From Kineosporia mesophila (GTDB lineage: Bacteria > Actinomycetota > Actinomycetes > Actinomycetales > Kineosporiaceae): a DNA stretch of 61,204 nucleotides. This document shows, one piece after another, positions 41,041-58,640 of this stretch. Positions within the stretch are counted from its first letter, which is position 1; each line of letters begins with the position of its first letter. The notes under the pieces are model-generated. The model saw only the letters and a program-made list of their open reading frames with translations, searched no databases and was not told the DNA's origin. Both the position numbers and the translations under genes were made by a program. Location: contig NZ_JAJOMA010000034.1 in the NCBI RefSeq assembly GCF_021129235.1, positions 1 through 61,204 of the forward strand. The letters are read 5' to 3'.

Positions 41041-41065
41041 CATCGTCCGGAAAGGAGGTACCCCG

Positions 41066-41161
41066 ATGGAACCGCAGCTCATCGCCTGGGAAACACCCGT
41101 GTTCGACGAGATCGCCGTCGCCCCCGAAGTGACCATGTACATCGCCCAGCTGGACGACTAG
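41066..41161 (+). CDS. pqqA: PQQ precursor peptide PqqA
   Basis: A 31-residue peptide ending PEVTMYIAQLDD. The Glu-x-x-x-Tyr pair (Glu21, Tyr25) is the substrate pair that PqqE cross-links and that becomes PQQ. AAAGGAGG precedes the ATG at a good distance. It follows the dehydrogenase by 25 bases and is separated from pqqB by a 128-base gap containing a hairpin. Confidence 0.93.
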   Translation: MEPQLIAWETPVFDEIAVAPEVTMYIAQLDD

Positions 41162-41194
41162 CAGACGCCGCGCACGTCGTCCGTCCACTTCGCT

Positions 41195-41242
41195 CGTGAT
41201 CATGCGGTCCCCAGCCTTCGGCCGGGAGACTGCATGATCACG
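41195..41242 (+). promoter_or_regulatory. Hairpin between pqqA and pqqB
   Basis: Perfect 11-base arms CGTGATCATGC and GCATGATCACG enclose a partly paired 26-base loop (inner TCCCC/GGGAG and GCCTTCGGC). It probably attenuates transcription or stabilises the pqqA message, giving more peptide than enzyme. Confidence 0.65.
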
Positions 41243-41289
41243 GGGAGAAGGTGGCTGCGATCAGCGGCAGAGGAGGGGAGGGCCTTCGC

Positions 41290-42159: not shown

Positions 42160-42162
42160 GTC

Positions 42163-42852
42163 ATGACGGCGACAATCGGTACCGAAGATCTGGTCACACG
42201 TCTGCGGGCGCACTCGCGCAGTTACCACGACCAGCACCCGTTCCACGTGCGGATGAACGCGGGCACGCTGAGTCCGGAACAGATCCGCGGCTGGGTGGCC
42301 AATCGCTTCTACTACCAGGAGAACATCCCGCTCAAGGACGCCGCGATCCTGTCCCGCTGCCCCGATCCCGCCGTGCGCCGGCGCTGGATCCGCCGCATCA
42401 CCGATCACGACGGCACAGCTCCCGGGCAGGGCGGGATCGAGGCCTGGCTGCGCCTGGGCGAGGCGGCCGGGCTGAGCCGCGAGGAGATCCTCGACCACCG
42501 GCACCTGGTGCCCGGCGTGCGGTTCGCGGTGGACGCGTACGTCACCTTCGCGCGGACGCGTCCGTGGGTGGAGTCGGTGGCGTCGTCGCTCACCGAACTG
42601 TTCGCCCCCGACCTGATGGCCGAGCGACTCCTCGCCTTCGAGCGGTACTACGGCTGGATCGAGCCCTCCGGCCTGGCCTACTTCCGCGACCGTCTGCACC
42701 AGGCTCCCCGCGACAGTGAACACGCGCTGGAAGTGGTCACCACACACTGTCTCTCGGAGCAGGACCAGAGCGCGGCGGTGGATGCCCTGTCGTTCAAGTG
42801 CGACGTGCTGTGGAGCATGATGGACGCCATCGACCGGGCCTTCACCGCATGA
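42163..42852 (+). CDS. pqqC: Pyrroloquinoline-quinone synthase PqqC
   Basis: 229 residues, TENA/haem-oxygenase-like fold. It has [39 protein letters not shown], the catalytic His in [19 protein letters not shown] and HCLSEQDQ. It catalyses the last eight-electron oxidation and ring closure to PQQ using O2, giving H2O2, which makes katG in the same run of genes meaningful. Its stop overlaps the pqqD start (ATGA). Confidence 0.96.
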
Positions 42853-43121
42853 TTCCCGGCAGCGACCGGCCTCGGCTGGCCCGTCACGTGCGGCTGGTCT
42901 GGTCGCCGGCCCGGCAGCAGCACGTGCTGCAGCTGCCGGAGACGGTGGTGGTGCTGAACCCCACGGGTGCGGCCGTTCTCGGCCTGTGTGACGGCCGGAC
43001 GACGGTCGGGGCGATCGTCGACGAGCTGGCCACCCGCTACCGGGACGTGCCCGGCGACGAGGTCCGGCTCTTCCTGAAGAGCCTGGTGGCGCGGCGTTGT
43101 GTGGAGATGGCCGATGACTGA
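42849..43121 (+). CDS. pqqD: PQQ biosynthesis chaperone PqqD
   Basis: 90 residues, the RiPP recognition element that brings PqqA to Pqq[42 protein letters not shown] and the C-terminal [12 protein letters not shown] are typical. The ATG overlaps the pqqC stop (ATGA), and its 3' end overlaps pqqE by eight bases, so the C-D-E trio is translationally coupled. Confidence 0.95.
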
Positions 43122-44202
43122 CGACCCGATGGTGGACGCGCCGTTCGGCCTGCTCGCGGAGCTCACCTACCGGTGTCCGCTGGCCTGCGCCTACTGCTCC
43201 AACCCGCTGAACCTGGACGATTACACCGAGGAGCTCGGCCCGGCCGACTGGATCCGGGTGCTGACGCAGGCCCGGGATCTGGGGGTACTGCAGTGCCACC
43301 TGTCCGGCGGGGAGCCCCTGCTGCGCCGTGACCTGCCCGAGATCGTCGCGGCCGCGCACGGTCTGGGTCTGTACACCAACCTCGTCACCAGTGCGGTCGG
43401 GTTCGGCCGCCGCAAGGCCGAGCAGCTGCGCGCCGCCGGACTGGACCACGTGCAGGTCAGCATCCAGGCCGACGCCCCGGCCCTGTCCGACCGGATCGCC
43501 GGCCTGCGGTCGTTCGACCGCAAGATCGACGCCATGCGCCTGGTCAAGGAGCTCGGCTGGCCCCTGACCGTGAACGTGGTGCTGCACCGGCAGAACATCG
43601 ACCGGATCGCCGAGGTGCTCGAGCTCGCGCAGGAGGCCGGCGCCGACCGGGTGGAACTGGCCAACACCCAGTACTACGGCTGGGCCTGGCGCAACCGCGA
43701 CGCGCTGCTGCCCAGCCGTGAGCAGCTGGCGCAGGCCGAGCTGGTGGTCCGGGAAGCGCGCGAGCGGTTACCGATGGACGTCCTCTACGTGATCCCCGAC
43801 TACTACAGCCGCTACCCGAAACCCTGTATGGGCGGCTGGGCGTCGCGTCAGCTGACCGTCACCCCGAACGGCGACGTACTGCCCTGCCCGGCGGCCCAGT
43901 CGCTGCCGTTGCCCCGGGCCAGCGTGCGCGAGGCGTCGCTCGCGCAGATCTGGGCGGACTCCCCGGTGATGAACGCCTTCCGGGGCACCTCCTGGATGCC
44001 CGACCCCTGCCACAGCTGTGAACGCCGGGAGATCGACTTCGGCGGGTGCCGATGCCAGGCCTTCCAGCTCACCGGCGACGCGGCGCGCACCGACCCGGTG
44101 TGCCACCTCTCGCCCGACCACGCCCTGGTGACCGACGCCGTGCGGGCGGCGAACCCGGGAGCCCCGGCCGGGAACCTCGTCCCCCGTCCCCATCGGGCCT
44201 GA
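43114..44202 (+). CDS. pqqE: PQQ radical SAM cross-linking enzyme PqqE
   Basis: 362 residues. The radical SAM cluster is CPLACAYC (CxxxCxxC) after ELTYR, followed by HLSGGEPLLR. The C-terminal SPASM domain keeps its Cys set: CMGG, LPCPAAQ, CHSCERR, GGCRCQAF and PVCHLSPDH. It forms the Glu-Tyr carbon-carbon bond in PqqA. GGAG eight bases before the ATG at 43114 supports the start. A cation transporter gene follows 17 bases later. Confidence 0.96.
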   Translation: MTDDPMVDAPFGLLAELTYRCPLACAYCSNPLNLDDYTEELGPADWIRVLTQARDLGVLQCHLSGGEPLLRRDLPEIVAAAHGLGLYTNLVTSAVGFGRRKAEQLRAAGLDHVQVSIQADAPALSDRIAGLRSFDRKIDAMRLVKELGWPLTVNVVLHRQNIDRIAEVLELAQEAGADRVELANTQYYGWAWRNRDALLPSREQLAQAELVVREARERLPMDVLYVIPDYYSRYPKPCMGGWASRQLTVTPNGDVLPCPAAQSLPLPRASVREASLAQIWADSPVMNAFRGTSWMPDPCHSCERREIDFGGCRCQAFQLTGDAARTDPVCHLSPDHALVTDAVRAANPGAPAGNLVPRPHRA

Positions 44203-45238: not shown

Positions 45239-45688
45239 TCAGGCCGGGAAACGACGCAGGAAGGCCGCGCCGATACGGGCGTTGCGCTCGACCTGTATCC
45301 ACACGGGCAAGAACAGCAGGGTCATGAACGCGGCGAAAATACCCGCCCATAGCCACCGGTTGACGAGGAAGTTGCCCCACCACGCCACCACCATGGCTGC
45401 CTGAACAACCACCAGGGCGCGAGTGGATCGTAGAGCCATGGCGTTCAGGCGCAGCTCGACCAGATGTTGTTCGGTCAGATCAACATTGTCGGGGTGTTCG
45501 AGAACATCCACCATGATGTTCTTCTGGGCCACACCTTTCGGCCGGTCCGGGGAAATGCCCGCAGCCCGACGTTTCTCGGCCTGGTCCATCAAATCCCGGT
45601 AGATCCGGACCACCGCGATCACCATCGCCACCAGACAGCCGGCGACCAGTACCAGCCCGCACCCGTCCAGGATCCCGATCTCGTCCAT
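45239..45688 (-). CDS. Small membrane protein, tandem paralogue 1
   Basis: 149 residues. An N-terminal helix (LVLVAGCLVAMVIAVV), a charged middle (DVLEHPDNVDLTEQHLVELRLNAMALRSTRAL) and two further helices end with VERNARIGAAFLRRFPA. The same R(L/A)-x-A-x-x-LRS and ERNAR-x-x-x-FLRR(Y/F)P elements recur in the next two upstream genes. Its family is unknown to me. It starts four bases after the stop of the second paralogue and is convergent with the CaCA gene five bases away, with no terminator seen. Confidence 0.75.
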   Translation of the reverse strand: MDEIGILDGCGLVLVAGCLVAMVIAVVRIYRDLMDQAEKRRAAGISPDRPKGVAQKNIMVDVLEHPDNVDLTEQHLVELRLNAMALRSTRALVVVQAAMVVAWWGNFLVNRWLWAGIFAAFMTLLFLPVWIQVERNARIGAAFLRRFPA

Positions 45689-45692
45689 CGTC

Positions 45693-46187
45693 TCAGGCGA
45701 CCGGTCCGCGATCGCCAGTCGTTTCGTCCCCCACCGGCTCTTTCTCGGGATACCGGCGCAGGAAGGCGTCGGCGGGTCGGGCGTTGCGCTCGGTCAGGAC
45801 GATGAAGGCAATCGAAAACAGGGTGAAGGCAAGGGCGAACGGGCCCCACCACCAGAAGGGCGCCTTGACCAGGAACCCCCACTGACCGAGGGTCATGCCC
45901 ACGCTCGTCAGCTCTAGCCATCGCTGGGATCGCAGCCACCGGGCGTACAACCGCAACCGAATCATCTGCTCACGGGGGCGGGGGCCGTGCTCGAGGGCCT
46001 CAAGAAGCTTTTGTCTTTGCTGGAAGTGGCCCGGCATGCTCTCGGGCAGACCTGCTTCCCGGCGCAATCTGCCCACCCGGACGGCGCTCAGGACCCCCAG
46101 AGCACCACCGACCACGGCCAGGGCGAAACCCACGACATTCAGGCCCAACGCCAGCCGGTCCAGATTGCCCCAATCGTCCATGGACAC
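45693..46187 (-). CDS. Small membrane protein, tandem paralogue 2
   Basis: 164 residues with the layout helix, charged cytoplasmic stretch (HFQQRQKLLEALEHG, IRLRLYARWLRSQRWLEL), two helices, and the tail TERNARPADAFLRRYPEKEPVGDETTGDRGPVA, here split as FLRRYPEKEPVGDE. The last 30 residues are almost the same as those of the third copy, so a recent duplication is likely. The start may be the GTG at 46187 or the ATG at 46181. No known function. Confidence 0.75.
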   Translation of the reverse strand: MSMDDWGNLDRLALGLNVVGFALAVVGGALGVLSAVRVGRLRREAGLPESMPGHFQQRQKLLEALEHGPRPREQMIRLRLYARWLRSQRWLELTSVGMTLGQWGFLVKAPFWWWGPFALAFTLFSIAFIVLTERNARPADAFLRRYPEKEPVGDETTGDRGPVA

Positions 46188-46245
46188 ACTTCACCGCCGG
46201 ATCCGCCCGGTCGCAACCCGAGCGATCAAGGAACCCCGGCCGGAC

Positions 46246-46721
46246 TCAGGCGACGGGACCCCGGTCGCCGGCCACCTCGTCCCCCACCGGCTCCCCCTCC
46301 GGATACCGGCGCAGGAATTCTTCGGCGATCCGGGCGTTGCGCTCGGTGAAGACGAGGAGGGGCAGGTAGATGACGGTCACCAGGCCGGCGACGCAGATCT
46401 GCCAGACGCTGGGCCTCTCCAGGAACCCATCAGGACTCCCGTCTGGAGCGGCAGCATCCACCGGCGCGACCGCAGGGCGAAGGCGTACAGCCACAACTCC
46501 GGCAGCCGATCGGGCGCGGCCCAGTTGGCCAGGGCTTCCCGCAGGGCTTTGGCCTGCCCGAAGTCGGTGGGCACCTTCGAGGTGGCGAGATCGGCCAGCC
46601 GGCGCCTGCTGCTCTCGCGCTGGATGCTTCTCAGCACCGCCACCACCCCGCCGAAGATCAGCGGGAGGCTGAGCAGGGTCAGGATGAATCCGGTGGGGTC
46701 CGCTATGCCTCTTTCGTCCAC
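46246..46721 (-). pseudogene. Small membrane protein, tandem paralogue 3, frameshifted
   Basis: From a GTG at 46721 one frame reads GFILTLLSLPLIFGGVVAVL and LWLYAFALRSRRWMLPLQTG, then loses sense near 46425. Another frame continues with VWQICVAGLVTVIYLPLLVF and TERNARIAEEFLRRYPEGEP to the stop at 46246. The span is not a multiple of three, in line with a single indel. The two halves together equal one paralogue of about 158 residues. Confidence 0.75.
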
Positions 46722-46854
46722 ACCACACCTTGATCGTTCGCGGGTCCCCGCGCAACCTCGGCCCGGACAGACATCGGCAATCCGATCGTCCGGGCGGCCG
46801 TTCCGGGCAGAATGCCCGGCGTAGGGGGAAGATCCACGGAGGGAGGAACACGGA

Positions 46855-47158
46855 TGGACGCGTTGTGCTACCGGGCGGCGAAAGTCGCCGCTGGCTGCGG
46901 GAGACGCCACTGGAGGCGACCCCGGCGCCGGAGGGACGCACCCGGATCACACCGCTGCTGCGCCGATGGGCCCCGCTGCCCGACCGCCTGGTGCCGACGC
47001 CCGCGGTGGTGACGAACGAGCAGCTCAGTGAACAGTTCGGCGAGATCACGCGGCCCGACGAGCTGAACGAAATCGTGCTGTCGGTGATCGGCCTGGGCAC
47101 ACAGCCCATCACCCGGCCCGAGTTCCACGTGCCGGACAGCACCTCGCAGATCACCTAA
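46855..47158 (+). CDS. Small hypothetical gene, start region frameshifted or uncertain
   Basis: An ATG at 46855 has an excellent GGAGGGAGGA ribosome site, but its frame soon becomes Arg-rich nonsense. Ten bases on, a GTG at 46865 opens a frame with clear coding bias that runs to 47158 and encodes about 97 residues: GGESRRWLRETPLEATP, WAPLPDRLVPTPAVVTNEQ, FGEITRPDELNEIVLSVIGL and a Thr/Ser-rich end. Removing two bases near 46866 would join MDAL to this frame. No family is recognised. It is divergent from the three paralogous membrane proteins. Confidence 0.5.
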
Positions 47159-48510: not shown

Positions 48511-48910
48511 GGCGCGACTTTAGCGCATGCCTCCTGGTACCAGCGCCGACAGTTCGCGGAATCATCACGAAAACGGGCATTCCCCCCAATAGTTACTCTG
48601 ATGTAGCATCGGGCTGGATCGATGGGGTGAGCGGTCGATCAGCACTGCCACCGGCAGACCACCGCGTGGCAGTGGCAGTGACGCGCGGGTCCAGTATCTG
48701 CGCCGCTGCCGACAATGGGGACGCACCATCAATTCCAGGGGGCCGTCAATGCTGACGTACGACCGGATATTCATTTCCGCTCATCCGAGCTGAATTTCTC
48801 ACTTACCTAAGACATCTCACGTTCGCCTGTCCGACAGCACTTTTCGCTGCCCGGAAGCGTCGTCCTGCCTGCACACCGTGAAAGATCTTCTTCGGGAAGG
48901 AATCCGACGG
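48511..48910. promoter_or_regulatory. Promoter region of the biosynthetic cluster
   Basis: About 400 bases without a supportable gene and with lower GC than the surroundings (for example near 48585-48620 and 48740-48800). No clear -35/-10 pair or palindrome stands out. It separates the deaminase from the acyl-AMP ligase, so the cluster promoter must lie here. Confidence 0.5.
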
Positions 48911-50653
48911 GTGCCAGAAACCTTCACCACAGCAGATCCACCGACTGCCGACGAGCCACTGCTGCGGTGGCTCACCCAGGCCTCCGGCGACGCCGGCCTG
49001 CACGTGGCCACCCCGACCTCCGGCTGGAACTACACCTCCTACCGCGACCTGGCCGTCCGGGTGAAGGTCTTCGCCGCGGGCCTGCAGGCGCAGGACCTGC
49101 GCCACGGCGACGTGGTGACCCTCATGGTCAGCGAGTCGGAGCAGTTCGTCGTCTCCTTCTTCGGCTGTCTGCTGGCCGGCGTCACCCCCTCGACCGTCAT
49201 GCCCCGGGGGCTGTTCCGCAAGGCCGACGGCTACATCTCGCACGTCTCCGGCATCCTCACCGCCGCCGACCCGGCCCTCGTAGTGGCCGGGGAAGAGTCG
49301 CAAGCGTATGCCGAGGAGGCTGTCAAGGTCTCCGGACTGCCCTCTCCCGTCGTCACTTTCACGGCCGTCCGGGAGTCCGGTGCGCAGGGGCCACCGGTCC
49401 GGGTGCCGGACGACCGCCCGCCCGGGCGCACGGCGCTGCTGCAGTTCACCTCCGGATCCAGCGGCGACCCCAAGGGCGTGCGGGTGAGCTGGGGCGCGCT
49501 CACGGCGAACGTCGGTGCCATCCGGGACTGGCTGGGCCTGACGCCGCAGGACCGATTCGCCGGGTGGCTGCCGTTGTTCCACGACATGGGGCTGATCGGC
49601 CAGATGCTGACGAGCATCACCAGCGGCGTGGACACCTGGATCCTCAGCCCGGAGCAGTTCATCCGCAATCCCGGGCGCTGGGTGGAGTGCTTCGGGAAGT
49701 ACGGCGCGACCATCACCACCTCGCCGAGTTTCGGCTACTCCTATGCCGCCCGCCGGGTCTCCCCCGACGACCTGGCCGGCTACGACTTCTCCCGCTGGCG
49801 CATCGCGATCCTCGGCGCCGAGCGCATCGACCCGGTCGGGGTCAACGACTTCACCCGGCTGGCCGCGCCCTTCGGCTTCGACCCGCACGCGCTGGTGGGT
49901 GCCTACGGCCTGGCCGAGGCGACCCTGGCCGTCACCGGGGCCCGGCCGGCCGACGGCTCACCCCTGGCGACGGCGCACAGCACCGTGGTCGAACCCGGGT
50001 CACCGGTCGGGGCGCGGCGCGACGGGCTGCTCGGGCGCGACCGCGGGACCGGTGAGCACCTGGTGGGCTGCGGCCGCCCGCTCTCCGGCCTGGTGGTGCG
50101 GGTGCTCGACGACGAGGGCGCGGAGGTGCCCGACGGGGCCCTGGGCGAGATCACCATCAGCGGTACTTCGCTGGCGGACGGCTACGTGCTGGGCGACCGC
50201 CGCCGGATCGACTTCGACCCCGCCGGTCACCGCACCGGTGATGCCGGTTTCCTGCTCGACGGGGATCTTTTCGTGGTCGGACGGATCGGCGACGGCATCA
50301 AGGTACGCGGCGCGATGGTGTTCGCCGAAGACCTGGAGGCCGAGCTGGAGCGGGTCTCGGGGACCCGGGCCGGCCAGGTCGCGGTGCTGCTGGGCCGCTC
50401 CGGCGGTTGCGACCGGGCTGTGGTGCTGATCGAGAGTTCTTCCCCGGAACGATGGAACGACCGGATCGGCACGATCGTCTCCACCGTGCGCGCCCGCACC
50501 AGCCCGGAGTTCGACTGCCCGGTGTACGCCGGCCGCTCCGGGGCCATTGCCCGCACCTCGAGCGGAAAGCCGCGCCGGCGCGTGCTGTGGCGTGACTATC
50601 TGGCCGGTGGCCTCACCGACTGGCAGCTCGCGACCCAGGAAGGCCGGTCATGA
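48911..50653 (+). CDS. Fatty acyl-AMP ligase (FAAL-type adenylating enzyme)
   Basis: About 580 residues. ANL-superfamily motifs are LLQFTSGSSGDPKGV (P-loop A3), WLPLFHDMGLIGQML (diagnostic of FAALs), VGAYGLAEATLAV (A5), HRTGDAGFLLDGDLFVVGR (A7-A8) and a C-terminal ARTSSGKPRR with the catalytic Lys. FAALs activate a carboxylic or fatty acid as acyl-AMP and pass it to a carrier protein, here most likely the ACP at 51650. A GTG at 48878 gives eleven more residues, but GGAAGGA nine bases before the GTG at 48911 favours the latter. The stop overlaps the next gene by four bases. Confidence 0.9.
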   Translation: MPETFTTADPPTADEPLLRWLTQASGDAGLHVATPTSGWNYTSYRDLAVRVKVFAAGLQAQDLRHGDVVTLMVSESEQFVVSFFGCLLAGVTPSTVMPRGLFRKADGYISHVSGILTAADPALVVAGEESQAYAEEAVKVSGLPSPVVTFTAVRESGAQGPPVRVPDDRPPGRTALLQFTSGSSGDPKGVRVSWGALTANVGAIRDWLGLTPQDRFAGWLPLFHDMGLIGQMLTSITSGVDTWILSPEQFIRNPGRWVECFGKYGATITTSPSFGYSYAARRVSPDDLAGYDFSRWRIAILGAERIDPVGVNDFTRLAAPFGFDPHALVGAYGLAEATLAVTGARPADGSPLATAHSTVVEPGSPVGARRDGLLGRDRGTGEHLVGCGRPLSGLVVRVLDDEGAEVPDGALGEITISGTSLADGYVLGDRRRIDFDPAGHRTGDAGFLLDGDLFVVGRIGDGIKVRGAMVFAEDLEAELERVSGTRAGQVAVLLGRSGGCDRAVVLIESSSPERWNDRIGTIVSTVRARTSPEFDCPVYAGRSGAIARTSSGKPRRRVLWRDYLAGGLTDWQLATQEGRS

Positions 50654-51624
50654 CCGCTACGAACGAGACGGCGCCCGTCGTCGGTCTCCTCGATGTCGAG
50701 GACACGCCCGCGGCCCGGGACAGCCGTCTGCCTGAACCCCGCGCCCTGTACAACCAGTGGGAGAAGCAGCAGTGGGCGATCGCGCAGGTGAACGTGCGAC
50801 GCGACCACGAGCAGTGGGAGACGCTCCGGCCGTTCGCCCGCCAGGAACTGCTGGGCGCGCTCAACGAGCTGGAGACCGGTGAGGTCTTCGTCAGCCGCAC
50901 CCTCAGCACCCTGGTCGGTTTCGCCCCCTCCGACCCCGACCGCCTGTTCCTCAGCACCCAGGTCGCCGACGAGGCCCGGCACGCCCAGTTCTTCCAGGAC
51001 TACCGGCTGGAGGCCGTGGGTCTGGAGGATGCCGCCGACGATGACGACTCGGCCTACGCCCAGCTGTTCGAGCCGACGCTGCGAACGAGCCTGGAGCAGG
51101 TGGCGGCCACGGGTGGGGACGTGGGCTGGTGGCACACGGCGGTGGTCGAGTATCACCTCGTCACCGAGGGCATCCTGGCCGCCGCCGCGCTGCACCTGAC
51201 CCGGCGCATCGCCCGTCGGTTCAGCCTGCCCGCACTGGAAGAAGGGCTGGGCAATGTGATCCGCGACGAGTCGCGGCATTTCACCTACGGTCTGGCCGTC
51301 ACCCGGCAGGCCGCCGAGGGTCCGCTACGCGACCGGATCACGCAGGTGTACCTGAACGGCGTCGAGGCCTCGGCCCGGATCATGGTGAACCCGCAGCGCA
51401 AGAGCGCGGCGCCGGTCCTGCGCCCGGCCCTGCTGCAACGGGCCGCCCTGCTCAGTACCCAGTGGGATCTCACCCGCACCCGGGCCCTACGTCAGCTGCG
51501 CCTGATGGGTCTTCCGGAACTACGGGAGGACGCCGAGAAGATCTGGGACCGCACCCTGGAGACCGCACTGTCGGAGTACGCGGACGTCTGGGGCACACCG
51601 CACCCGGTCGCCGCCGCCCGCTGA
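50650..51624 (+). CDS. R2/ferritin-like diiron oxidase
   Basis: 324 residues, an all-helical protein related to ribonucleotide-reductase R2 and R2lox proteins (LYNQWEKQQWAIAQVNVRRD). The metal set is a Glu in LNELETGEVF (75-80), DEARH (Glu108, His111), a Glu in VVEYHLVTEG (167-173) and RDESRH (Glu207, His210), all that a diiron site needs. It probably uses O2 to desaturate, hydroxylate or cleave an acyl group held on the neighbouring carrier protein. The ATG overlaps the ligase stop (ATGA). The reaction cannot be read from sequence. Confidence 0.82.
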   Translation: MTATNETAPVVGLLDVEDTPAARDSRLPEPRALYNQWEKQQWAIAQVNVRRDHEQWETLRPFARQELLGALNELETGEVFVSRTLSTLVGFAPSDPDRLFLSTQVADEARHAQFFQDYRLEAVGLEDAADDDDSAYAQLFEPTLRTSLEQVAATGGDVGWWHTAVVEYHLVTEGILAAAALHLTRRIARRFSLPALEEGLGNVIRDESRHFTYGLAVTRQAAEGPLRDRITQVYLNGVEASARIMVNPQRKSAAPVLRPALLQRAALLSTQWDLTRTRALRQLRLMGLPELREDAEKIWDRTLETALSEYADVWGTPHPVAAAR

Positions 51625-51649
51625 ACCGCCCTACCCACAGGAGACAGAC

Positions 51650-51949
51650 ATGGCTCAGAACACCGAGATCGGCGAGAACACCACCTCATCCGCGGACATC
51701 GGCGCCCGGGTGCGGGACGTCGTGGGCAGTCTGGTGCCCGGCGGGCGGCGCGAGGTCGAGACCGGCGACCAGCTGACCGACCTGGGTTTCGACTCGCTCG
51801 GCACGCTGGAACTGGCGATGGCGCTGGAGACCGAGTTCGACCTCGCGGAGGTGCCGGAGGGGCAGGCCGTGGAGATGGCCACGGTCGGCGACATCGAGAG
51901 GCTGGTCAGCTCCCTGGTCGGCCCGACGGCAGCGCCGGGCCCGGAGTGA
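51650..51949 (+). CDS. Acyl carrier protein 1
   Basis: 99 residues. The phosphopantetheine site is LTDLGFDSLGTLELAMALE with Ser at about residue 50. Helices before and after are normal (IGARVRDVVGSLVPGG, ATVGDIERLVSSL), with a Pro/Ala tail. It probably carries the acyl chain loaded by the acyl-AMP ligase and oxidised by the diiron protein. AGGAG six bases before the ATG; its stop overlaps the GTG of the next gene. Confidence 0.92.
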   Translation: MAQNTEIGENTTSSADIGARVRDVVGSLVPGGRREVETGDQLTDLGFDSLGTLELAMALETEFDLAEVPEGQAVEMATVGDIERLVSSLVGPTAAPGPE

Positions 51950-52920
51950 CGGCTGAACGCGAGGCCTGGCTGACCGCCCTCTCCCGGCTCTACCCGGTAC
52001 CCGACGGCTACCGGGTGCCGCTGCTGGACGAGGACGCGGCCCAGGACGTGCTGCGCTGCGGCCCGGAGGTCTTCGCCGACCTGGTCGCCGCCGGCCTGCC
52101 CCACGACGGGGGCCGGTTCGACCGTAACGACCTCACCAACCTCGCCCTCGACGCCGGGACCGGGCGCTCCCGCCCCGAGCGGGCCGTCCGTTACGCCCTG
52201 CGCTGGATGCGGGAAGACCCCAGCACCTGGGAAACCCCGATGCAGTGGTCGTTCTCGATCGAGATGTCAGCACCGGACGAGGTGGCGGGGTCGTGGTCGC
52301 ACACCCGGTTCCTGCCCGAGCTGAACGGCGGGCTGCTGGAGAACTGGGAGAGCTCGTCCGCGGTGCGGATCACGCCCACGCACTTCGAGTTCGACGGGCC
52401 CGGCCCGGTGACGTTCTCGGGCAGCATCAGCACCGCCGGCAAGGTGCGGGGCCTGGTCTCCCCGCACCTGCGCAAGATCACCGAGGAGTTCCTCGACCGC
52501 GGGTACCGCTGGGTCCGGCTGCCGGAAGACTGCCAGCACGACTACGCACCGATTCTGGACGCGGGGGTCGCCCCGTGCGTCGCGGCGTCCACCTACCTGC
52601 GGAAAGAGTTCCAGGCGGCCGGTTACGAGGCCCGCACCCGGGGCGGGTGGATCCTCGGCATGCTCGACCTGGCGCACTCCTGGGTCGAGGTGGTGGACGA
52701 CGACGGGGTCACCAAACCCGTCGACGCGGTCTTCGAGCGGCTCTCGAACCTCGCCGAGCACCCGCATCCCGGTATCCCCGCGGCCTGCGTGGGGTCGCGC
52801 ATCAACCGGATGCTGCCGGGCGCGATCGGCGCCGGGGCCCCCGAGTCGCTGCACCACACAGCCGGCGGCGTGCGCCCGGCGACCACCCGCACCGTGATCA
52901 GAAGGGTAGGAGCCAGATGA
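51946..52920 (+). CDS. Transglutaminase-like protein of unknown function
   Basis: 324 residues. The N-terminal 100 residues resemble no family I know. In the C-terminal half a possible transglutaminase/papain-like triad is visible: Cys211 in GVAPCVAASTYLRKEFQAAG, His244 in AHSWVEVVDDDG and Asp260 in KPVDAVF, with the usual spacing and HxW motif. Such enzymes form or break amides by acyl transfer. Between two carrier proteins it could join the acyl and aminoacyl parts. It starts at a GTG overlapping the ACP stop and ends in an ATGA overlap with the N-oxygenase gene. Confidence 0.65.
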   Translation: MTAEREAWLTALSRLYPVPDGYRVPLLDEDAAQDVLRCGPEVFADLVAAGLPHDGGRFDRNDLTNLALDAGTGRSRPERAVRYALRWMREDPSTWETPMQWSFSIEMSAPDEVAGSWSHTRFLPELNGGLLENWESSSAVRITPTHFEFDGPGPVTFSGSISTAGKVRGLVSPHLRKITEEFLDRGYRWVRLPEDCQHDYAPILDAGVAPCVAASTYLRKEFQAAGYEARTRGGWILGMLDLAHSWVEVVDDDGVTKPVDAVFERLSNLAEHPHPGIPAACVGSRINRMLPGAIGAGAPESLHHTAGGVRPATTRTVIRRVGAR

Positions 52921-53846
52921 CCGCCACCTACGCCAGCGTCCGGGAACGGCTCGATCAGGACCCCGGGTTCCGCGACGTGCTCAAGCGCCTGGTGGATCTG
53001 TCGGAGCGGGACTACTACAACCCGTACCGGGAGTTCCAGTGGCCCGACAGCCTGCCGGAGCAGCGCTGGTGGATGACGCCGGAGATGATGGTCGAGCACG
53101 GCACGGCCGTCGGCGCCACCCTGAGTGAGCAGCAGCTGCAGACCATCTCGCGCTGGGAGAGCATCAACTTCTACAGCCTCAACGTGCACGGCATCCGCGA
53201 GCTGCTGCACGAGATCATCGCGCGGATCCACACCACCGATTTCGTGGCGCCCTCGGCGTACTTCCACCACATCATCGGCGAGGAGAACGAGCACATGTGG
53301 TTCTTCGCCGAGTTCTGCCTGCGGTACGGCGGCAAGATCTACCCCTCCCGGGCCATGAGCCTGGCCGGGCCGGGGGTGGCCGAGGCCGACCACTTCCTGG
53401 TCTTCTCCCGGCTGCTGATCTTCGAGGAGCTGGTGGACGTGTTCAACCAGCGGATGGGCCAGGACGAGCGCCTCGACCCGACGATCCGCAAGGTCAACGA
53501 GGTGCACCACCGGGACGAGTCGCGCCACATCGCGTTCGGGCGGCAGATCGTCGCGATGCTCTGGTCGGACCTGCGCGACCGTATCGACCAGAGTCAGCAG
53601 GCCGTGCTGGAGGCCTACATCAAGCGCTACATGATCGCCTCGATCGACAGCCTGGTCGACCCGCTCATCTACAAGGACGCGGGGATCCCCGACCCCTACG
53701 AGGTGCGCCGTCAGGTGCTGGCCGACCCGTCCCACCCGGCCTACGTGGAGCGGATCCTCAAGCGCAGCATCTCGTTCATGACCAACACCGGTGTGTTCAC
53801 CTCGCCGCTGTTCGAGGAGCCGCGCCGGGCCGGGGCGGCCTCGTGA
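52917..53846 (+). CDS. AurF-type diiron N-oxygenase
   Basis: 309 residues. The ligand pattern of p-aminobenzoate N-oxygenase AurF is present. EENEH gives Glu123 and His126, Glu170 lies in LLIFEELVD, and HHRDESRH gives His197, Glu201 and His204, the characteristic additional His four residues before the Glu. The first Glu is at 81, 95 or 99. AurF relatives turn amines into hydroxylamines or nitro groups. With the adjacent aminoacyl carrier protein, the substrate may be a carrier-bound amino acid. ATGA overlap upstream and GTGA overlap downstream show strict coupling. Confidence 0.85.
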   Translation: MTATYASVRERLDQDPGFRDVLKRLVDLSERDYYNPYREFQWPDSLPEQRWWMTPEMMVEHGTAVGATLSEQQLQTISRWESINFYSLNVHGIRELLHEIIARIHTTDFVAPSAYFHHIIGEENEHMWFFAEFCLRYGGKIYPSRAMSLAGPGVAEADHFLVFSRLLIFEELVDVFNQRMGQDERLDPTIRKVNEVHHRDESRHIAFGRQIVAMLWSDLRDRIDQSQQAVLEAYIKRYMIASIDSLVDPLIYKDAGIPDPYEVRRQVLADPSHPAYVERILKRSISFMTNTGVFTSPLFEEPRRAGAAS

Positions 53847-54091
53847 GCAACGGTTTCGACGTCGTCGCCGAGAACCTGCGCACGCGCTACCAGAAGGTGC
53901 AGGGCAACGGCGAGCAGATCCCGCCGGGCTACGACCTGATCGAGAACCGGGTGCTCGACTCGCTCGGGTTCGTCGAGTTCATCCTGCTGCTCGAGGAGCA
54001 CTCGGGCCGGGAGATCTCGATCGACTCGGTGAGCCGGGAGGACTTCCGGACCGTCGAGTCGATCAGGAAGAGGTTCTTCGATGGCGTCTGA
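53843..54091 (+). CDS. Carrier protein 2 (probable aminoacyl carrier)
   Basis: 82 residues. RVLDSLGFVEFILLLEEHSG holds the phosphopantetheine Ser (DSL), with a long charged first helix (VVAENLRTRYQKVQ) and a C-terminal REDFRTVESIRKRFF helix. The shape resembles the small stand-alone carriers that partner amino acid:[carrier protein] ligases. It starts inside the stop of the N-oxygenase (GTGA) and overlaps the ligase start by eleven bases, so the three are a unit. Confidence 0.88.
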   Translation: MSNGFDVVAENLRTRYQKVQGNGEQIPPGYDLIENRVLDSLGFVEFILLLEEHSGREISIDSVSREDFRTVESIRKRFFDGV

Positions 54092-54944
54092 AACCCTGCT
54101 GACGGGAACCGGTGTCACCGGCGACGGCCGGGCCACCCTCGGCCCGGCCGCGATCGGGCTGCTGGGCCGCCTGGACCGGACCTTCGCCGGGTGGGGTCTG
54201 GAGGCGGGGGCACAGGAGTACCGCTTCCCGCCCCTGCTCACCGTCGGCGACCTGGCGAAGATGGACTACTTCGACAACTTCCCGCACCTGGCCTCACCCG
54301 TCTCCGCGCTGAACCGCACGCTGATGAGTGACGCCGGGCTCGCCGAGGGCACGGTCGCGGACGGTGCGGTGGTGGCGTCGGCTCTCGTCGACGCCGAGTA
54401 CGTTCTGCCCTCGGCTGCCTGCTACGGCGCCTACTTCGACCTGGCCGACTCCGCGGTCGAGGGCGGGAACCGGGCGATCACCACGGTGGCCACGTGTTTC
54501 CGGCGGGAAGACCACTACGAGGGCCTGCGGCGGCTGTTCGGTTTCACCATGCGGGAGGTCATTCTCGTCGGTGACCGCGACACCGTGCTGGAGCACCTGG
54601 GTGCGTTCAGGACGCGGATCGCGGCGTTCCTGGAACAGCTGGGCCTGCCGCACCATGTCGACGTGGCGACCGACCCGTTCTTCGATCCGAACGGCGCCAA
54701 GAGCCAGATGCAGAAGCTCTTCCCGACCAAGGAGGAGTTCCTGTACGACGGCACGCTGGCCATCGCGTCGGTGAACTTCCACCGCAACTTCTTCGGTGAC
54801 CGGTACCGGATCCGGCTGCCGGACGGCTCGCCGGCCTTCACCGGCTGTGTGGCCTTCGGCCTGGAGCGCTGGATCAGCGCCCTGGGCCGGCAGTACCCCG
54901 ACCTCGCCTCCGTCGACCAGCGACTCACCACTTCTGGAGCGTGA
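54081..54944 (+). CDS. Class-II synthetase-like amino acid:[carrier protein] ligase
   Basis: 287 residues, a stripped-down seryl-tRNA-synthetase-like catalytic domain without the tRNA-binding arm. Motif 2 is TCFRREDHYEGL plus FGFTMREVILVG, and motif 3 is GCVAFGLERWISAL. The zinc ligands known for this family (Cys, Glu, Cys) appear as Cys114, Glu143 and Cys256. The enzymes activate a small amino acid such as glycine or alanine and load it on a carrier protein, here the one just upstream. This gives the cluster a non-NRPS amino-acid entry point. Confidence 0.85.
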   Translation: MASETLLTGTGVTGDGRATLGPAAIGLLGRLDRTFAGWGLEAGAQEYRFPPLLTVGDLAKMDYFDNFPHLASPVSALNRTLMSDAGLAEGTVADGAVVASALVDAEYVLPSAACYGAYFDLADSAVEGGNRAITTVATCFRREDHYEGLRRLFGFTMREVILVGDRDTVLEHLGAFRTRIAAFLEQLGLPHHVDVATDPFFDPNGAKSQMQKLFPTKEEFLYDGTLAIASVNFHRNFFGDRYRIRLPDGSPAFTGCVAFGLERWISALGRQYPDLASVDQRLTTSGA

Positions 54945-54947
54945 CCC

Positions 54948-55772
54948 ATGACGTCATCGACACAACCCGAACCGGGCTGGGTGGTGGAGGGCGCGGACCT
55001 GTCCCGCCCCAGCATCGCGCGGATGTACGACTACCTGATGGGTGGTGACCGCCACGTCGAGGAGGACCGCGACGTGGCGCACGCCGCCCGCAACGCCGCC
55101 CCGATGATCCGGCTGACCATCTGGGAGAACCGCAAGCTCATCAAACGGGTGGTGCGCGAGCTGGTCGCGGGCGGGGTCACGCAGATCCTCGACATCGGTT
55201 CCGGCATCCCGGCCCGGGCGTCCGTGCACGAGGTGGCCCACGCCGTCAACCCGGACGTGAAGGTGGTCTACGCCGACATCGACCCGGTGGCGGCGGCCCG
55301 GGGCCGCGAGCTGCTCGCGGACCTGCCGCACTGCGGATCGTTCCAGGGCGACCTGACCAAGCCGCAGGAGATTCTCCAGCACCCGGACGTGATCTCGCGG
55401 CTCGATCTCTCGCAGCCGGTGGCGCTGTTCTTCTTCAACGTGCTGCACTTCCTCGACCGGGATGAGGTGACCGCCGCGCTGGAGGTCTACCGCGACGCGC
55501 TGGCGCCCGGCAGCCACCTGGCCATCAGCCACGGAACCAGCGAGCTGGACGGCCGGGGGCAGGCGATCGGAAAGGTCTACGCCGGCGCCTACGGTCACCT
55601 GGACTACCGCACGAAAGACCAGCTGGCCCTGCTGTTCGGCGATTTCGGGCTGCTGGAACCCGGGATCGTGCTGCTGCCGGACTGGCGGCCGGAACCCTCA
55701 CCGCTGAGCAGCCGGCTGGGTGCGCGGGGCGCTCCGGTGAACTGTTACGCGGGGGTCGCGGTCAAGCCCTGA
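54948..55772 (+). CDS. SAM-dependent methyltransferase, PF04672 (DUF574) family
   Basis: 274 residues. It has the family opening RPSIARMYDYLMGGDRHVEED, SAM-binding ILDIGSGIPARASVHEVAH, VYADIDPVAAARGRELLAD, and FFFNVLHFLDRDEV with AISHGTSEL. This family is abundant in actinomycetes, with few known substrates. It follows the ligase by three bases, so it is likely the last gene of the cluster and may methylate the product, for example an N-hydroxyl or carboxyl group. A strong terminator follows. Confidence 0.88.
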   Translation: MTSSTQPEPGWVVEGADLSRPSIARMYDYLMGGDRHVEEDRDVAHAARNAAPMIRLTIWENRKLIKRVVRELVAGGVTQILDIGSGIPARASVHEVAHAVNPDVKVVYADIDPVAAARGRELLADLPHCGSFQGDLTKPQEILQHPDVISRLDLSQPVALFFFNVLHFLDRDEVTAALEVYRDALAPGSHLAISHGTSELDGRGQAIGKVYAGAYGHLDYRTKDQLALLFGDFGLLEPGIVLLPDWRPEPSPLSSRLGARGAPVNCYAGVAVKP

Positions 55773-55779
55773 AAGCAGG

Positions 55780-55822
55780 CCCGTACGGTCCGGCTCCGGG
55801 AACCGGACCGTACGGGATTTTT
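55780..55822. terminator. Bidirectional terminator with T-run
   Basis: A perfect 14-bp stem CCCGTACGGTCCGG with a nine-base loop is followed by ATTTTT. It separates the convergent cluster end and the SGNH hydrolase. Confidence 0.9.
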
Positions 55823-56481
55823 CAGTTCTGCTCGCTCAGCCGGACCACTGTGGCGGACGCGACCACCGCGTGGCCCCGGGTGGTGAGGTGCTGGAAGTCG
55901 CTGGCGTACACGTCGTCCTGGGCCGCTGCGGGGTGGGTGCCGAAGTCGATGTGGAGGGTGCCGTTGCGTTCGGCGACGCCGCCCACGATCGCGTAGAGCT
56001 CGTCGAGCTGGGCCTTCAGCGACGGCTTGAACTCGTCGGGCAGCAGCCCGGAGCGGGTGATGTCGAACAGGCCCATGGTGACCACCGTCGCGCCGCTCTC
56101 GCGCAACGGCCCGACGATCTGGTCGAGCTCGGCGGCGACCCCGTCGAACGAGCCGCGCAGCAGGTCGTTCCCGCCGCACAGCACCACGGCCAGGTCGGGC
56201 TCGAACTCCAGCGCCGGTTTCACCTGCTTGGCCCGCACCTCGCGGGCGAGAAGGCCCTTCTGGCCCAAGTTCTTGGCCTGCAGATCGGGCTGGGACAGCA
56301 GCAGGCTCTCGCTCAGCCAGTCGAACCACGACTTGTCCGGGTACCCCTCGACCACCTCCCGGATGCCCGCGGCGTGGCTGTCACCGAGCACCGCCAGACG
56401 CTTCCAGGGGGCCTTGGCGAGCAGGTCGCCGGCGCGGGTCAGGTCCTGGGTGTAGAGGTCCTGTGCGATGTTGTCGCTCAA
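55822..56481 (-). CDS. SGNH/GDSL hydrolase family protein
   Basis: 219 residues. Block I is RLAVLGDSHAAGIRE (Ser nucleophile), block III LCGGNDLLRG, and block V DFQHLTTRGHAVVA with the catalytic His. No signal peptide is present, so it is cytoplasmic. Such enzymes are esterases, thioesterases or acyltransferases, and it could release or transfer the cluster product. The likely start is a TTG overlapping the stop of the exporter gene by four bases; no ATG lies in the right place. Confidence 0.85.
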   Translation of the reverse strand: MSDNIAQDLYTQDLTRAGDLLAKAPWKRLAVLGDSHAAGIREVVEGYPDKSWFDWLSESLLLSQPDLQAKNLGQKGLLAREVRAKQVKPALEFEPDLAVVLCGGNDLLRGSFDGVAAELDQIVGPLRESGATVVTMGLFDITRSGLLPDEFKPSLKAQLDELYAIVGGVAERNGTLHIDFGTHPAAAQDDVYASDFQHLTTRGHAVVASATVVRLSEQN

Positions 56482-57935
56482 CGGACGGTCCCTTCGGTGG
56501 CTGGCGTCGCCTCGCTGCGAGGCGCCGGAGCGGGTACGTACTTCGGGAAGTGGAATCCGGCGCTGGCCGCAGCCGCCGCGAGTGCGCACAGGCCGCAGAC
56601 CAGGTAGACGAGCTGATAGCCGGACAGGCCCGGCTCGGCGGCGATGACGGCCGTCATGGCGGCGATGCCGAGGGCGCCGCCGACCTGGCGGCAGGCGATG
56701 TTCATGCCGGTGGCGCTGGCGAACTTGACCGGGCTGGCCGACATCACCGCGGCCACCGAGAGGCTCCACGACATCAGGCCGATGCCGAAGCCGATGACAA
56801 AGCTCAGCGGCAGCCAGAAGGTGGTGAAGTGCGGGTTCTCGGGCAGGAAGACCCAGCAGAACACCCCGACCGCGAAGATCGTCAACGACCCGACGACCGA
56901 GATGACGCGCGGCCCCACCCGTTCCCCGACCCGCGAGGCGATGATCGCCGTCACCGAGGCGACCAGGGCGCCCGGGCTCATGGCGAGACCGGCCTTCAGC
57001 GTGGAGTAGTGCCACTGTTCGGTCAGGACCAGCACGCCGACCAGCAGCCAGGTGAACAGGGCCGCGCCGTAGACCATCGCGGCGAGGTTGGCGCGCAGGA
57101 AGGTGCGGTTGCGCCACAGCGTGGTCTCGACCACGGGGACGGCGTGCCGGGTGGAGCGCAGCAGCACGAGGGCGACCAGGACCGGTCCGAGCCCCAGGGC
57201 CAGGAGGGTGGAAGGGCTGCTCCAGCCCCACTCCTCGCCCTTGGTGGCGCCCAGGACGGTCAGGCCGACGCCGAGCACCAGGATCACGGTGCCGATCGGG
57301 TCGGGCACTCGCCCGCCCCGCAGGCCGGTGCCGATCCGGCGCAGGCCGGCGACGAACAGGACGATGCCGATCGGCACGTTGATGAGGAAGAGCGAGCGCC
57401 AGCCCACCCATTCGACCAGGACGCCGCCCAGGCCCGGGCCGATGGCCGCGGCCAGGGCGCCGGCGGCGCTCCACAGGCCGATGGTCTTCGTGCGCTGGGA
57501 GGAGGGGGTGTCGGTGAGCACCACGGCGAGCGAGGCCGGCACCATCGCCGCCGCGCCGATGGCCTGCAGGCCGCGGCCCACGACCAGCACGTCGAGGTTC
57601 GGCGCGAGGGCGCACAGCAGCGACATCACGGTGAACACCGCGACGCCGGAACAGAACAGGGCCCGCCTGCCGATCACGTCGGAAAACCGGCCGGCCGGTG
57701 CGAGCAGGGCGGCGAACACGATGGCGTACAGCGTGATCACCCAGGAGATGCCGCTCAGGGTGCCGGCGGGGGTGTCCCCGGGAAAGTCACCGGCGAGCGA
57801 GGGGACGGCGAGGTTCGCGACCGTCGAGTCGAGCATGGCCAGGAATGTGGCACCGGCGGCGAGCAGTCCCGTGGTGCGGGAGCCCGTTGCTCGGGAGCCG
57901 GCTGTTCGGGCTGTTCGGGACCCTGTGGTGGACAC
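56478..57935 (-). CDS. MFS transporter, DHA2 (EmrB/QacA) family
   Basis: About 485 residues, fourteen predicted helices. The first-helix motif is FLAMLDSTVANLAVPSLAGDF, motif A GRFSDVIGRRALFCSG, motif C AAIGPGLGGVLVEWVGWRSLF. It is a proton-driven exporter of drugs or metabolites. The Ser/Arg/Thr-rich N-terminus is not membrane-like. GGAAGG eight bases before the GTG at 57935 makes it a better start than the GTG at 57944. It is coupled to the SGNH gene, with a TetR gene behind it and an operator-like site in front. Confidence 0.9.
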   Translation of the reverse strand: MSTTGSRTARTAGSRATGSRTTGLLAAGATFLAMLDSTVANLAVPSLAGDFPGDTPAGTLSGISWVITLYAIVFAALLAPAGRFSDVIGRRALFCSGVAVFTVMSLLCALAPNLDVLVVGRGLQAIGAAAMVPASLAVVLTDTPSSQRTKTIGLWSAAGALAAAIGPGLGGVLVEWVGWRSLFLINVPIGIVLFVAGLRRIGTGLRGGRVPDPIGTVILVLGVGLTVLGATKGEEWGWSSPSTLLALGLGPVLVALVLLRSTRHAVPVVETTLWRNRTFLRANLAAMVYGAALFTWLLVGVLVLTEQWHYSTLKAGLAMSPGALVASVTAIIASRVGERVGPRVISVVGSLTIFAVGVFCWVFLPENPHFTTFWLPLSFVIGFGIGLMSWSLSVAAVMSASPVKFASATGMNIACRQVGGALGIAAMTAVIAAEPGLSGYQLVYLVCGLCALAAAAASAGFHFPKYVPAPAPRSEATPATEGTVR

Positions 57936-57959
57936 CAATCGCACCTTCCCCCGGAAATA

Positions 57960-58029: not shown

Positions 58030-58626
58030 TCACAGACCCGCGGTCTCGCGCAGCAGCCGGATCGTGCGGTCGCGGGTGTCGGCGTCGTCCAGCTGCACGG
58101 CCTGGTTCAGGGACAGGCCCAGGGCGATCAGCAGGGCGGCCGTGTCGGGCACGTCGTGGGGCAGCCGGTGGCCCGCCGCCACCGCCTCGGACAGCTGGGC
58201 CCGCAGGAAGTGGCGCCACTGCCGGGCCGCCTCGACCATGTGGTCACGCAGCGGCCCGGACTGCCCGTCCAGCTCGAAAGAGGCACTGGTGAGAAGGCAT
58301 CCGCCGCGGAACGGGCTGTTGACCAGGTAGTCGGTCCAGCCCTCGACGATCACCCGCAGACGCTGCTCCCCCGGGCCCAGGTGCAGGACCAGGGCCGGGT
58401 CGATGACCCGCTCGCGCAGCGCGGCCACCCCGAGGTCGAACGCGGCCAGGAGCAGGGCCTCACGGGTGCGGAAGGGCCCGACGACGCCGGCCTTGCTCAT
58501 GTTCAGGGTGGTGGCGATACCTCCCAGGGAGATGCCACCGGCGCCGTGCACGGACATCTGCTGCACGGTCTCGGCGAGAATCGCACGGCGGGTCTGCTCG
58601 GCTTCGGCCGCTGAACTACGGGGCAT
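58030..58626 (-). CDS. TetR/AcrR family transcriptional regulator
   Basis: 198 residues. The N-terminal helix-turn-helix (QTRRAILAETVQQMSVHG, GGIATTLNMSKAGVVGPF) is followed by a TetR C-terminal ligand domain (GWTDYLVNSPFRGGCLLTSA, LRDHMVEAARQW). It lies directly upstream of the exporter and SGNH genes on the same strand, and the CGAACG sites at both promoters suggest it represses itself and the exporter. ATG at 58626 fits the family; ATGs at 58632 and 58635 are alternatives. Confidence 0.9.
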   Translation of the reverse strand: MPRSSAAEAEQTRRAILAETVQQMSVHGAGGISLGGIATTLNMSKAGVVGPFRTREALLLAAFDLGVAALRERVIDPALVLHLGPGEQRLRVIVEGWTDYLVNSPFRGGCLLTSASFELDGQSGPLRDHMVEAARQWRHFLRAQLSEAVAAGHRLPHDVPDTAALLIALGLSLNQAVQLDDADTRDRTIRLLRETAGL

Positions 58627-58640
58627 GACCATCATCTTAG

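Follow-up and report, generated by a model that had tools for sequence, protein, structure and literature searches.

A conserved gene cluster of Kineosporia mesophila with two carrier proteins, each beside its own ligase and oxygenase, and a candidate transglutaminase-like joining enzyme

How might a fatty acyl unit and an amino acid be brought together by an operon that contains two free-standing carrier proteins and no recognisable condensation domain? This question is raised by a locus in a 61,204-nucleotide stretch of Kineosporia mesophila (NCBI RefSeq assembly GCF_021129235.1, contig NZ_JAJOMA010000034.1, positions 1 to 61,204, forward strand), hereafter the window. An initial annotation, made from the sequence alone, had placed at 48911-55772 seven tightly packed genes followed by a methyltransferase gene; all eight were found to be present, and their family assignments are supported by Pfam and NCBIfam. 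The genes probably encode a biosynthetic pathway. Its likeliest form, to which we give a probability of about 0.52, would be a two-carrier scheme in which a transglutaminase-like protein (TGl) joins the units held on the two carriers, the amino unit being more likely oxidised to the oxime or nitronate level. Judging from gene content, what is new is the combination of two half-modules, each of them known from other pathways. Compared loci are designated by L numbers. The eight genes are as follows.

48878..50653, plus strand: adenylating enzyme resembling fatty acyl-AMP ligases (FAALs) (AMP-binding, 1.3e-55; closest NCBIfam models are FAALs)
50650..51624, plus strand: R2lox-type dimetal enzyme (R2) (Ribonuc_red_sm, 5e-9, and R2lox models)
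51650..51949, plus strand: acyl carrier protein 1 (ACP1) (PP-binding, 9.5e-7; GFDSL motif)
51946..52920, plus strand: TGl, proposed condensing enzyme (C211-H244-D260; Transglut_core 0.043, below cut-off)
52917..53846, plus strand: AurF-type ferritin-like diiron oxygenase (AurF, 8e-34)
53843..54091, plus strand: carrier protein 2 (ACP2), proposed aminoacyl carrier (PP-binding, 0.017, weak; DltC/AmcB-like in NCBIfam; LDSLG motif)
54081..54944, plus strand: amino acid:[carrier protein] ligase (aaCPL), class II, seryl-tRNA-synthetase-like (NF005479, 9.6e-40; PDB 3mey, Bll0957, 8.6e-31)
54948..55772, plus strand: S-adenosylmethionine methyltransferase, Methyltransf_19 (PF04672, 6.6e-68)

These co-directional genes span 48.9-55.8 kb, and the first has two candidate starts, GTG 48911, with a Shine-Dalgarno-like GGGAAGGAAT present, or GTG 48878. 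The packing is as tight as first described: four of the six junctions inside the seven-gene core are 4-nt overlaps, the other two being an 11-nt overlap between ACP2 and aaCPL and a 25-nt gap between R2 and ACP1, and the methyltransferase gene starts 3 nt after aaCPL. Both carriers have a serine within a DSL motif. In agreement with the initial annotation, no ketosynthase, condensation domain or non-ribosomal peptide synthetase (NRPS) module appeared among the operon genes and the flanking genes scanned with Pfam, a scan that covered these genes rather than the whole window.

The cluster is real and conserved, and not a chance neighbourhood. The seven-gene core was found in eight loci of six genera, seven of them with one common order: the window shares its order with L025, of the same genus, and with L103 (Actinomadura fibrosa), L105 (A. 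rudentiformis), L106 (Solihabitans fulvus), L107 (Actinocorallia sp.) and L110 (Lentzea californiensis), and L097 holds the full core rearranged, with TGl upstream of FAAL. About 1 kb separates FAAL from R2 in L105 and L106, the insert of L106 being a thioesterase-like gene, and L104 contains six core genes, with FAAL not found within 17.8 kb. The seven families, whose co-occurrence across genomes had been proposed as a check, are found together, and scattering in relatives, which would have spoken against a common pathway, was not seen; the genes stay together in relatives and within the genus. In L025 TGl is 94% identical, and the whole set, including three downstream GDSL, MFS and TetR genes described below, is kept at 92-98%. 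When six genomes of the genus were searched, close relatives (at least 92%) of TGl, FAAL and aaCPL all fell in the same two genomes, and for FAAL and aaCPL the remaining genomes gave either no match or distant ones of at most 50% identity, so that the presence of any one of the three tested genes goes with that of the other two. Across the order 3 of 297 genomes contained a TGl relative, and across the class 16 of 394, the source genome included and many of the matches being weak or partial.

The first three genes would provide the lipid half, in which the FAAL-like enzyme would activate a fatty acid and load it on ACP1. The R2 protein keeps all six metal ligands, and both positions of the Val/Tyr cross-link of R2lox, in 11 of 11 sequences; in an alignment counted by hand the latter two, V81 and Y168, match V72/Y162 of G. 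kaustophilus R2lox (residue names from PMC6399176). A Val occupies the place where N-oxygenases have a seventh His. With the R2lox ligands and cross-link positions kept and this His lacking, oxidation of acyl-chain carbon is the natural reading, and R2lox proteins bind a long-chain fatty acid (PMC6399176), one member being reported as an alkane hydroxylase (PMC10867098). The protein differs from R2lox in scoring below the NCBIfam cut-offs and in being tied to a FAAL and an ACP, a linkage that suggests an ACP-bound acyl substrate; the acyl chain would most simply be hydroxylated. Assignment as a ribonucleotide reductase was ruled out by the cross-link pair and the FAAL/ACP neighbourhood.

A comparable lipid half is found in the lit cluster of Streptomyces aureus LU18118, the source of lipothrenin A, a fatty diacyl N-hydroxy-threonine (PMC10616846). 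As described there, this cluster has genes for a FAAL, an R2-like protein, an ACP, a GDSL enzyme, an MFS protein and an AurF-type enzyme, and LitL is needed for production. The window cluster shares with it the FAAL-R2-ACP order, the accompanying GDSL and MFS genes, the TetR gene and an AurF-type N-oxygenase; the lit cluster differs in its ThiF, GMC, acyl-CoA dehydrogenase and DUF4873 genes. Two lit-like loci, L098 and L099, encode ketosynthase-III-like, MFS, FAAL, R2, ACP, GDSL, GMC, acyl-CoA dehydrogenase, AurF, DUF4873-like and dienelactone-hydrolase-like proteins, a content that, with translations read by eye, fits the published cluster (PMC10616846); L098 is called the lit cluster here by gene order and gene lengths, not by a deposited sequence. 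Their FAAL and R2 proteins are about 45% identical to those of the window, with FAAL, R2 and ACP in the same order. The AurF proteins are only about 26-27% identical, a level at which the window protein is not assigned to the LitN type of N-oxygenase, and no relatives of TGl, carrier 2 or aaCPL were detected in L098 or L099 at E 0.01. The lit gene table (PMC10616846) likewise names none of these three and lists litI, litK and litL as 'hypothetical'. The LitL candidate of L098 had no Pfam match, and a LitL-like query was not among the matches listed at E 1e-6 for L025 or the other compared loci, a comparison that covered these loci and not the window itself. A plain lipothrenin orthologue was rejected on the AurF identity of 26-27% and on the missing TGl, carrier 2 and aaCPL relatives.

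The second half is predicted to handle a small amino acid, most likely glycine, which aaCPL would load on carrier 2. Residues C114, E159 and C256 of aaCPL align with the zinc ligands of Bll0957, which we take to be C131/E176/C279, and all 92 of the 92 sequences compared agree in the residues aligned with the zinc and ATP sites of Bll0957. The PDB match (8.6e-31) and these shared residues liken the protein to Bll0957-type amino acid:[carrier protein] ligases, from which it differs in its place in a natural-product-like operon with an N-oxygenase and in its NCBIfam score below cut-off. In the AurF-type protein E123, H126, E170, E201, H204, probably E81, and a seventh His, H197, are invariant in 14 of 14 aligned sequences; E81 as the first metal ligand is a guess. 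If it is accepted, the protein agrees with the N-oxygenase pattern of six metal ligands and a seventh His four residues before the last ExxH Glu (PMC12154687). Its single-sequence structure model was unusable (pLDDT 37).

Neighbours of AurF point to a known type of module. An AurF alignment searched against a species-genome collection matched 291 stretches, 279 of which were confirmed, and the best 80 together with 13 earlier loci gave a set of 93, mostly found by AurF similarity and counting the overlapping L149 and L178 of one contig as two. Within 5.5 kb of AurF, aaCPL was found in 91 of the 93 and a carrier 2-like protein in 90. By partner, 67 loci had an LCM-family methyltransferase, 12 TGl, five a nitronate monooxygenase, three a PAD-family protein and six others; L026, with both TGl and nitronate monooxygenase, was counted under TGl. 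In the AurF tree, from which 8 of 94 rows with a stop in the translated BLAST hit were omitted (L110, L112, L114, L137, L153, L167, L171, L084), 11 of 12 TGl-locus rows formed one clade (support 100/100), and a fork with support 95/84 joined this clade to the LCM-methyltransferase loci. The nitronate monooxygenase loci fell outside this fork, under a midpoint root used for drawing only, and L026 lay far off on a long branch. The union of the TGl-locus clade with the LCM loci makes a common glycine-to-nitronate reaction plausible.

He and Ryan (2021) reportedly described an enteromycin-type module of this kind of diiron enzyme. Akazaoxime, a product of the enteromycin class, derives from glycine by labelling, and the diiron oxygenase of its cluster is thought to oxidise glycine to an aldoxime or, together with a methyltransferase, to an O-methyl nitronate (PMC9967187). 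Two of our LCM loci, L112 and L115, have AurF, aaCPL, carrier and LCM methyltransferase after an A-PCP protein, confirmed with Pfam in both, and a large polyketide synthase (PKS) protein, whose KS-AT-KR-ACP domains were confirmed in L112; in L115 a beta-lactamase-family gene lies between PKS and AurF. Their domain order is that reported for the akazaoxime cluster (PMC9967187), and a role of aaCPL in akazaoxime-type loci is suggested by the present analysis. The window resembles this type in the adjacency of an AurF-type enzyme, aaCPL, a stand-alone carrier and a methyltransferase, and in an AurF about 48-54% identical to those of the LCM loci. It differs in its partners, which are FAAL, R2, ACP and TGl instead of A-PCP and KS-AT-KR-ACP, and in its methyltransferase, which belongs to Methyltransf_19 and not to the LCM family.

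Three further groups of AurF-aaCPL modules were observed. In L076, L078, L079, L137 and L161 (Tistrella mobilis plasmid pTM2) AurF, aaCPL and a carrier stand with a nitronate monooxygenase, one of these loci being in an alphaproteobacterium; such modules are possibly glycine denitrification cassettes. In L081, L082 and L083 AurF and aaCPL, with a carrier in L081 and L082, lie beside a Porphyromonas-type peptidyl-arginine-deiminase-family protein, and their AurF proteins form their own clade. The genome of the window itself holds a second, distant module (L084, 8357-16263) with a ketosynthase-III-like protein, AurF (32-33%), a carrier, aaCPL (38-40%), a reductase, a phosphopantetheinyl transferase-carrier fusion and a FAAL-like ligase.

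Between the two halves lies the gene for TGl, which Pfam barely recognises (Transglut_core 0.043). A profile search of the PDB returned nothing significant (best E 0.12). Its structure model is confident (pLDDT 90.9), and in a Foldseek search with this model the only matches with E of at most 0.001 were the three chains of 3isr, a putative cysteine protease of transglutaminase-like type. All 24 of the 24 relatives aligned, the farthest at about 24% identity, retain Cys211, His244 and Asp260; the alignment left out L034, because of split reading frames, and L043, L196 and L197. Among 28 TGl loci, chosen by hand from several searches, at least one carrier was found within 6 kb of TGl in 26, an AMP ligase in 25 and two or more carriers in 16; with the same models none of 11 control stretches, each of 12 kb, gave a carrier, AMP ligase or aaCPL. 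Since the models for carriers and ligases had been seeded with proteins of some TGl loci, these counts lean towards TGl loci. The controls comprised four stretches of the window and L036-L041 and L044, loci first picked up by weak, partial similarity to TGl but without a match to the TGl model.

Other TGl clusters vary the same theme. On a plasmid (L197) the annotated order is AMP-binding protein, ACP, TGl, carrier, AMP-binding protein and ferritin-like protein, and from this gene order L197 appears to follow the same two-carrier logic, with another ligase replacing aaCPL. L196, a plasmid of Mycobacterium intracellulare subsp. chimaera, has TGl close to an ACP and a carrier, and to two proteins annotated as an amino acid adenylation protein and a chlorinating enzyme; the aaCPL model found no match in either TGl locus. 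L027 and L035 represent a further type, with a FAAL, a small carrier-like protein, TGl, another AurF-family oxygenase and a protein with a haem-oxygenase-like C-terminal domain, to which L027 adds a GDSL enzyme. In andrimid biosynthesis AdmF, a Cys-His-Asp transglutaminase-like enzyme, joins acyl-S-ACP to aminoacyl-S-PCP without a condensation domain, and TGl would likewise stand between an acyl and an aminoacyl carrier. The window cluster differs from andrimid in that its carriers and ligases are all free-standing, and TGl is likened to AdmF by its triad and a modest fold match. Placement and triad pattern are what a carrier-to-carrier condensing enzyme would be expected to show, and the comparative evidence of the window and L197 thus favours the earlier suggestion of two carrier lines with the Cys-His-Asp protein as their likely joiner.

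Taken together, the proposed pathway would hold an R2lox-oxidised acyl chain on ACP1 and, on carrier 2, an amino acid whose amine would be oxidised by the AurF-type enzyme, the oxime/nitronate level of the enteromycin-type module being the likelier outcome. The Methyltransf_19 protein would methylate the N-oxidised unit or the product, and TGl would join the acyl group of one carrier to the unit on the other, as an amide or an ester. The small N-oxidised lipo-amino acid or amide first suggested as the product is still among the two leading candidates; a simple N-acyl amino acid is just one option, because the N-oxidised unit may be an oxime or nitronate, in which the nitrogen is no longer a nucleophile.

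Several observations weigh against this scheme. The FAAL-like, R2 and aaCPL proteins fall below the cut-offs of their best NCBIfam models, scoring 318 against 600 bits (FAAL models), 81.8 against 194 (R2lox) and 136.5 against a curated 357 (NF005479), respectively. The amide synthase GdmF and arylamine N-acetyltransferases match the TGl model only at E above 0.03, and its TM-scores to PDB structures are a modest 0.37-0.44. Within 6 kb of TGl no carrier was found in L028 and L029 and no AMP ligase in L029, L030 and L104; AurF lacks a neighbouring aaCPL in L116 and L173. In the lit cluster little changed when litE, the R2 homologue, was deleted, and deletion of litD, the FAAL gene, had a partial effect (PMC10616846), and glycine loading for akazaoxime is assigned to an NRPS protein, not to aaCPL (PMC9967187). 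The TGl-AurF-carrier-aaCPL block occurs without FAAL, R2 and ACP1 in L108, L109 and L111. A glycine nitrogen at the nitronate level could not be acylated, and no gene supplying an amine for the lipid side was found in the window cluster.

These last points bear on the direction in which TGl would work. TGl and AurF occur with a nitronate monooxygenase in L026 and L185, so TGl can seemingly act on a unit without an available nitrogen, and the acyl group may come from the N-oxidised glycine. A class III aminotransferase near the clusters of L106, L107 and L110, with a GMC oxidoreductase also in L106, would be in keeping with a lipid-side amine; L196 and L197, which have other ligases, would fit the opposite direction. 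The two-carrier scheme could be narrowed to a lipid counterpart of enteromycin made without NRPS or PKS, in which a glycine O-methyl nitronate (a reactive 1,3-dipole) or oxime on carrier 2 would be donated by TGl to the hydroxyl installed by the R2lox-type enzyme on the ACP-bound chain, or to an amine in the clusters with an aminotransferase; in this specific form we regard it as rather unlikely. If it held, R2lox-type enzymes would gain a biosynthetic carrier-bound substrate and TGl would be a stand-alone carrier-to-carrier ester or amide synthase.

Among the rival explanations a hydroxamate route survives best, as a possible outcome with the odds against it. Here AurF would stop at N-hydroxyglycine on carrier 2, or hydroxylate the amide later, and TGl would move the acyl group of ACP1 onto the nitrogen; the product would be N-acyl-N-hydroxyglycine, a small lipothrenin-like iron chelator, which the methyltransferase would turn into a methyl ester or an O-methyl hydroxamate. 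AdmF provides a precedent for such a transfer, and the adenylation protein and carrier beside TGl in L196 and the carrier and AMP-binding protein in L197, with no aaCPL found, are consistent with it, as is the origin of an N-hydroxy lipo-amino acid, lipothrenin A, from a cluster with FAAL, R2-like, ACP, GDSL, MFS and AurF-type genes (PMC10616846). However, the window AurF is far closer to that of the LCM loci (about 48-54%) than to the LitN-like protein of L098 (about 26-27%), and beside the nitronate monooxygenase of L026 and L185 the glycine nitrogen would be lost. It is improbable that TGl is instead a hydrolase or off-loading enzyme, a cysteine thioesterase or protease-like protein, and that the two carrier lines, if they are coupled, rely on chemistry or on another enzyme: its top fold match, 3isr, carries the annotation of a putative cysteine protease and its amide-synthase matches are weak, but Pfam and NCBIfam recognised no other condensing enzyme in the operon and TGl stays beside carriers and ligases across diverse clusters. 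That the FAAL-R2-ACP trio, found without the TGl block in L096, L098 and L099, and that block, found alone in L108, L109 and L111, are independent modules and merely neighbours is very improbable, given the 4-base overlaps in the window, the one order over seven loci, the joint presence or absence within the genus, and a plasmid relative, L184, in which TGl, AurF, carrier and aaCPL lie beside KS/CLF/ACP genes as if these replaced the lipid supply.

Downstream of the two-carrier operon, the following features mark its end and extend the cluster.

55780..55816, plus strand: hairpin with a T-run after it, which probably terminates the eight-gene operon and has convergent genes on either side (folding energy)
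55822..56481, minus strand: GDSL lipase/acylhydrolase, LitG-like, start approximate (PF13472, 6.6e-18)
56478..57944, minus strand: MFS transporter, probable exporter (PF07690, 3.6e-51)
58030..58635, minus strand: TetR-family regulator (PF16925, 7.3e-24)

The hairpin has 14 pairs and a folding energy of -36.7 kcal/mol (z -4.84), reached in 0 of 200 shuffles; the methyltransferase gene is probably the eighth of the operon, and the hairpin probably ends the transcript. A consensus terminator scan did not report it, its loop exceeding the limit of that scan, whose three hits equal the expected number; Rfam gave no match, and repeat and promoter scans were uninformative. The 3' limit of the operon thus agrees with the extent first given, whereas the cluster is larger, since the convergent GDSL, MFS and TetR genes up to 58635 belong with it. 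A GDSL match lies near the cluster in L025, L097, L103, L104, L105, L106, L107 and L110, TetR relatives in L025, L103 and L105, and an MFS protein 57% identical to that of the window beside the A. fibrosa cluster (L103). Methyltransf_19 proteins lie near the cluster in L025, L097, L103 and L104, and methyltransferases of other families in L105 and L106. The GDSL enzyme would hydrolyse or recruit acyl chains, the MFS protein would export and the TetR protein would regulate. Molybdopterin-type oxidoreductases were also seen beside TGl clusters, in L184 (16998-19223, annotated), L110 (15430-17643) and L111 (13128-15437), the last two by eye.

With regard to known pathways, no named cluster with this gene set was found in searches of the open-licence PMC literature. 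The cluster can hence be called undescribed for its combination, within the literature searched, but not for its halves, which are related to the lipothrenin cluster (lipid half) and to akazaoxime/enteromycin-like loci (amino half). A diazo/hydrazone pathway of the triacsin/azaserine type (PMC12154687) was rejected, there being no lysine hydroxylase or MetRS-cupin among the operon genes. Nocuolin (PMC5333925) was likewise set aside: its FAALs and AurF-like proteins are accompanied by PKS/NRPS genes, and the word 'tRNA' is absent from the main text of the paper.

Elsewhere in the window, a pyrroloquinoline quinone (PQQ) biosynthesis operon occupies 39322-44202 (a metallo-beta-lactamase-fold PqqB-like protein, a PqqC-family protein, PqqD, and PqqE at 511 bits), preceded by a protein that by eye resembles PQQ-dependent dehydrogenases. 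At 45239-47154, minus strand, two small proteins of 149 and 164 aa, neither with a Pfam match, are encoded in tandem; by eye they share an ERNAR...FLRRYP ending with a third open reading frame, as a local paralogous family.

Altogether, the data point to an uncharacterised family of compact natural-product clusters. In these a pair of free-standing carriers, each accompanied by its own ligase and oxygenase, would be served by a transglutaminase-like joining enzyme instead of a condensation domain. Clusters of this kind, without NRPS or PKS signatures, may escape signature-based mining. They offer testable roles for R2lox-like oxidases, aminoacyl:carrier ligases and TGl proteins, all of them with poorly known substrates, and the product of the K. 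mesophila cluster would likely be a reactive or iron-chelating lipid.

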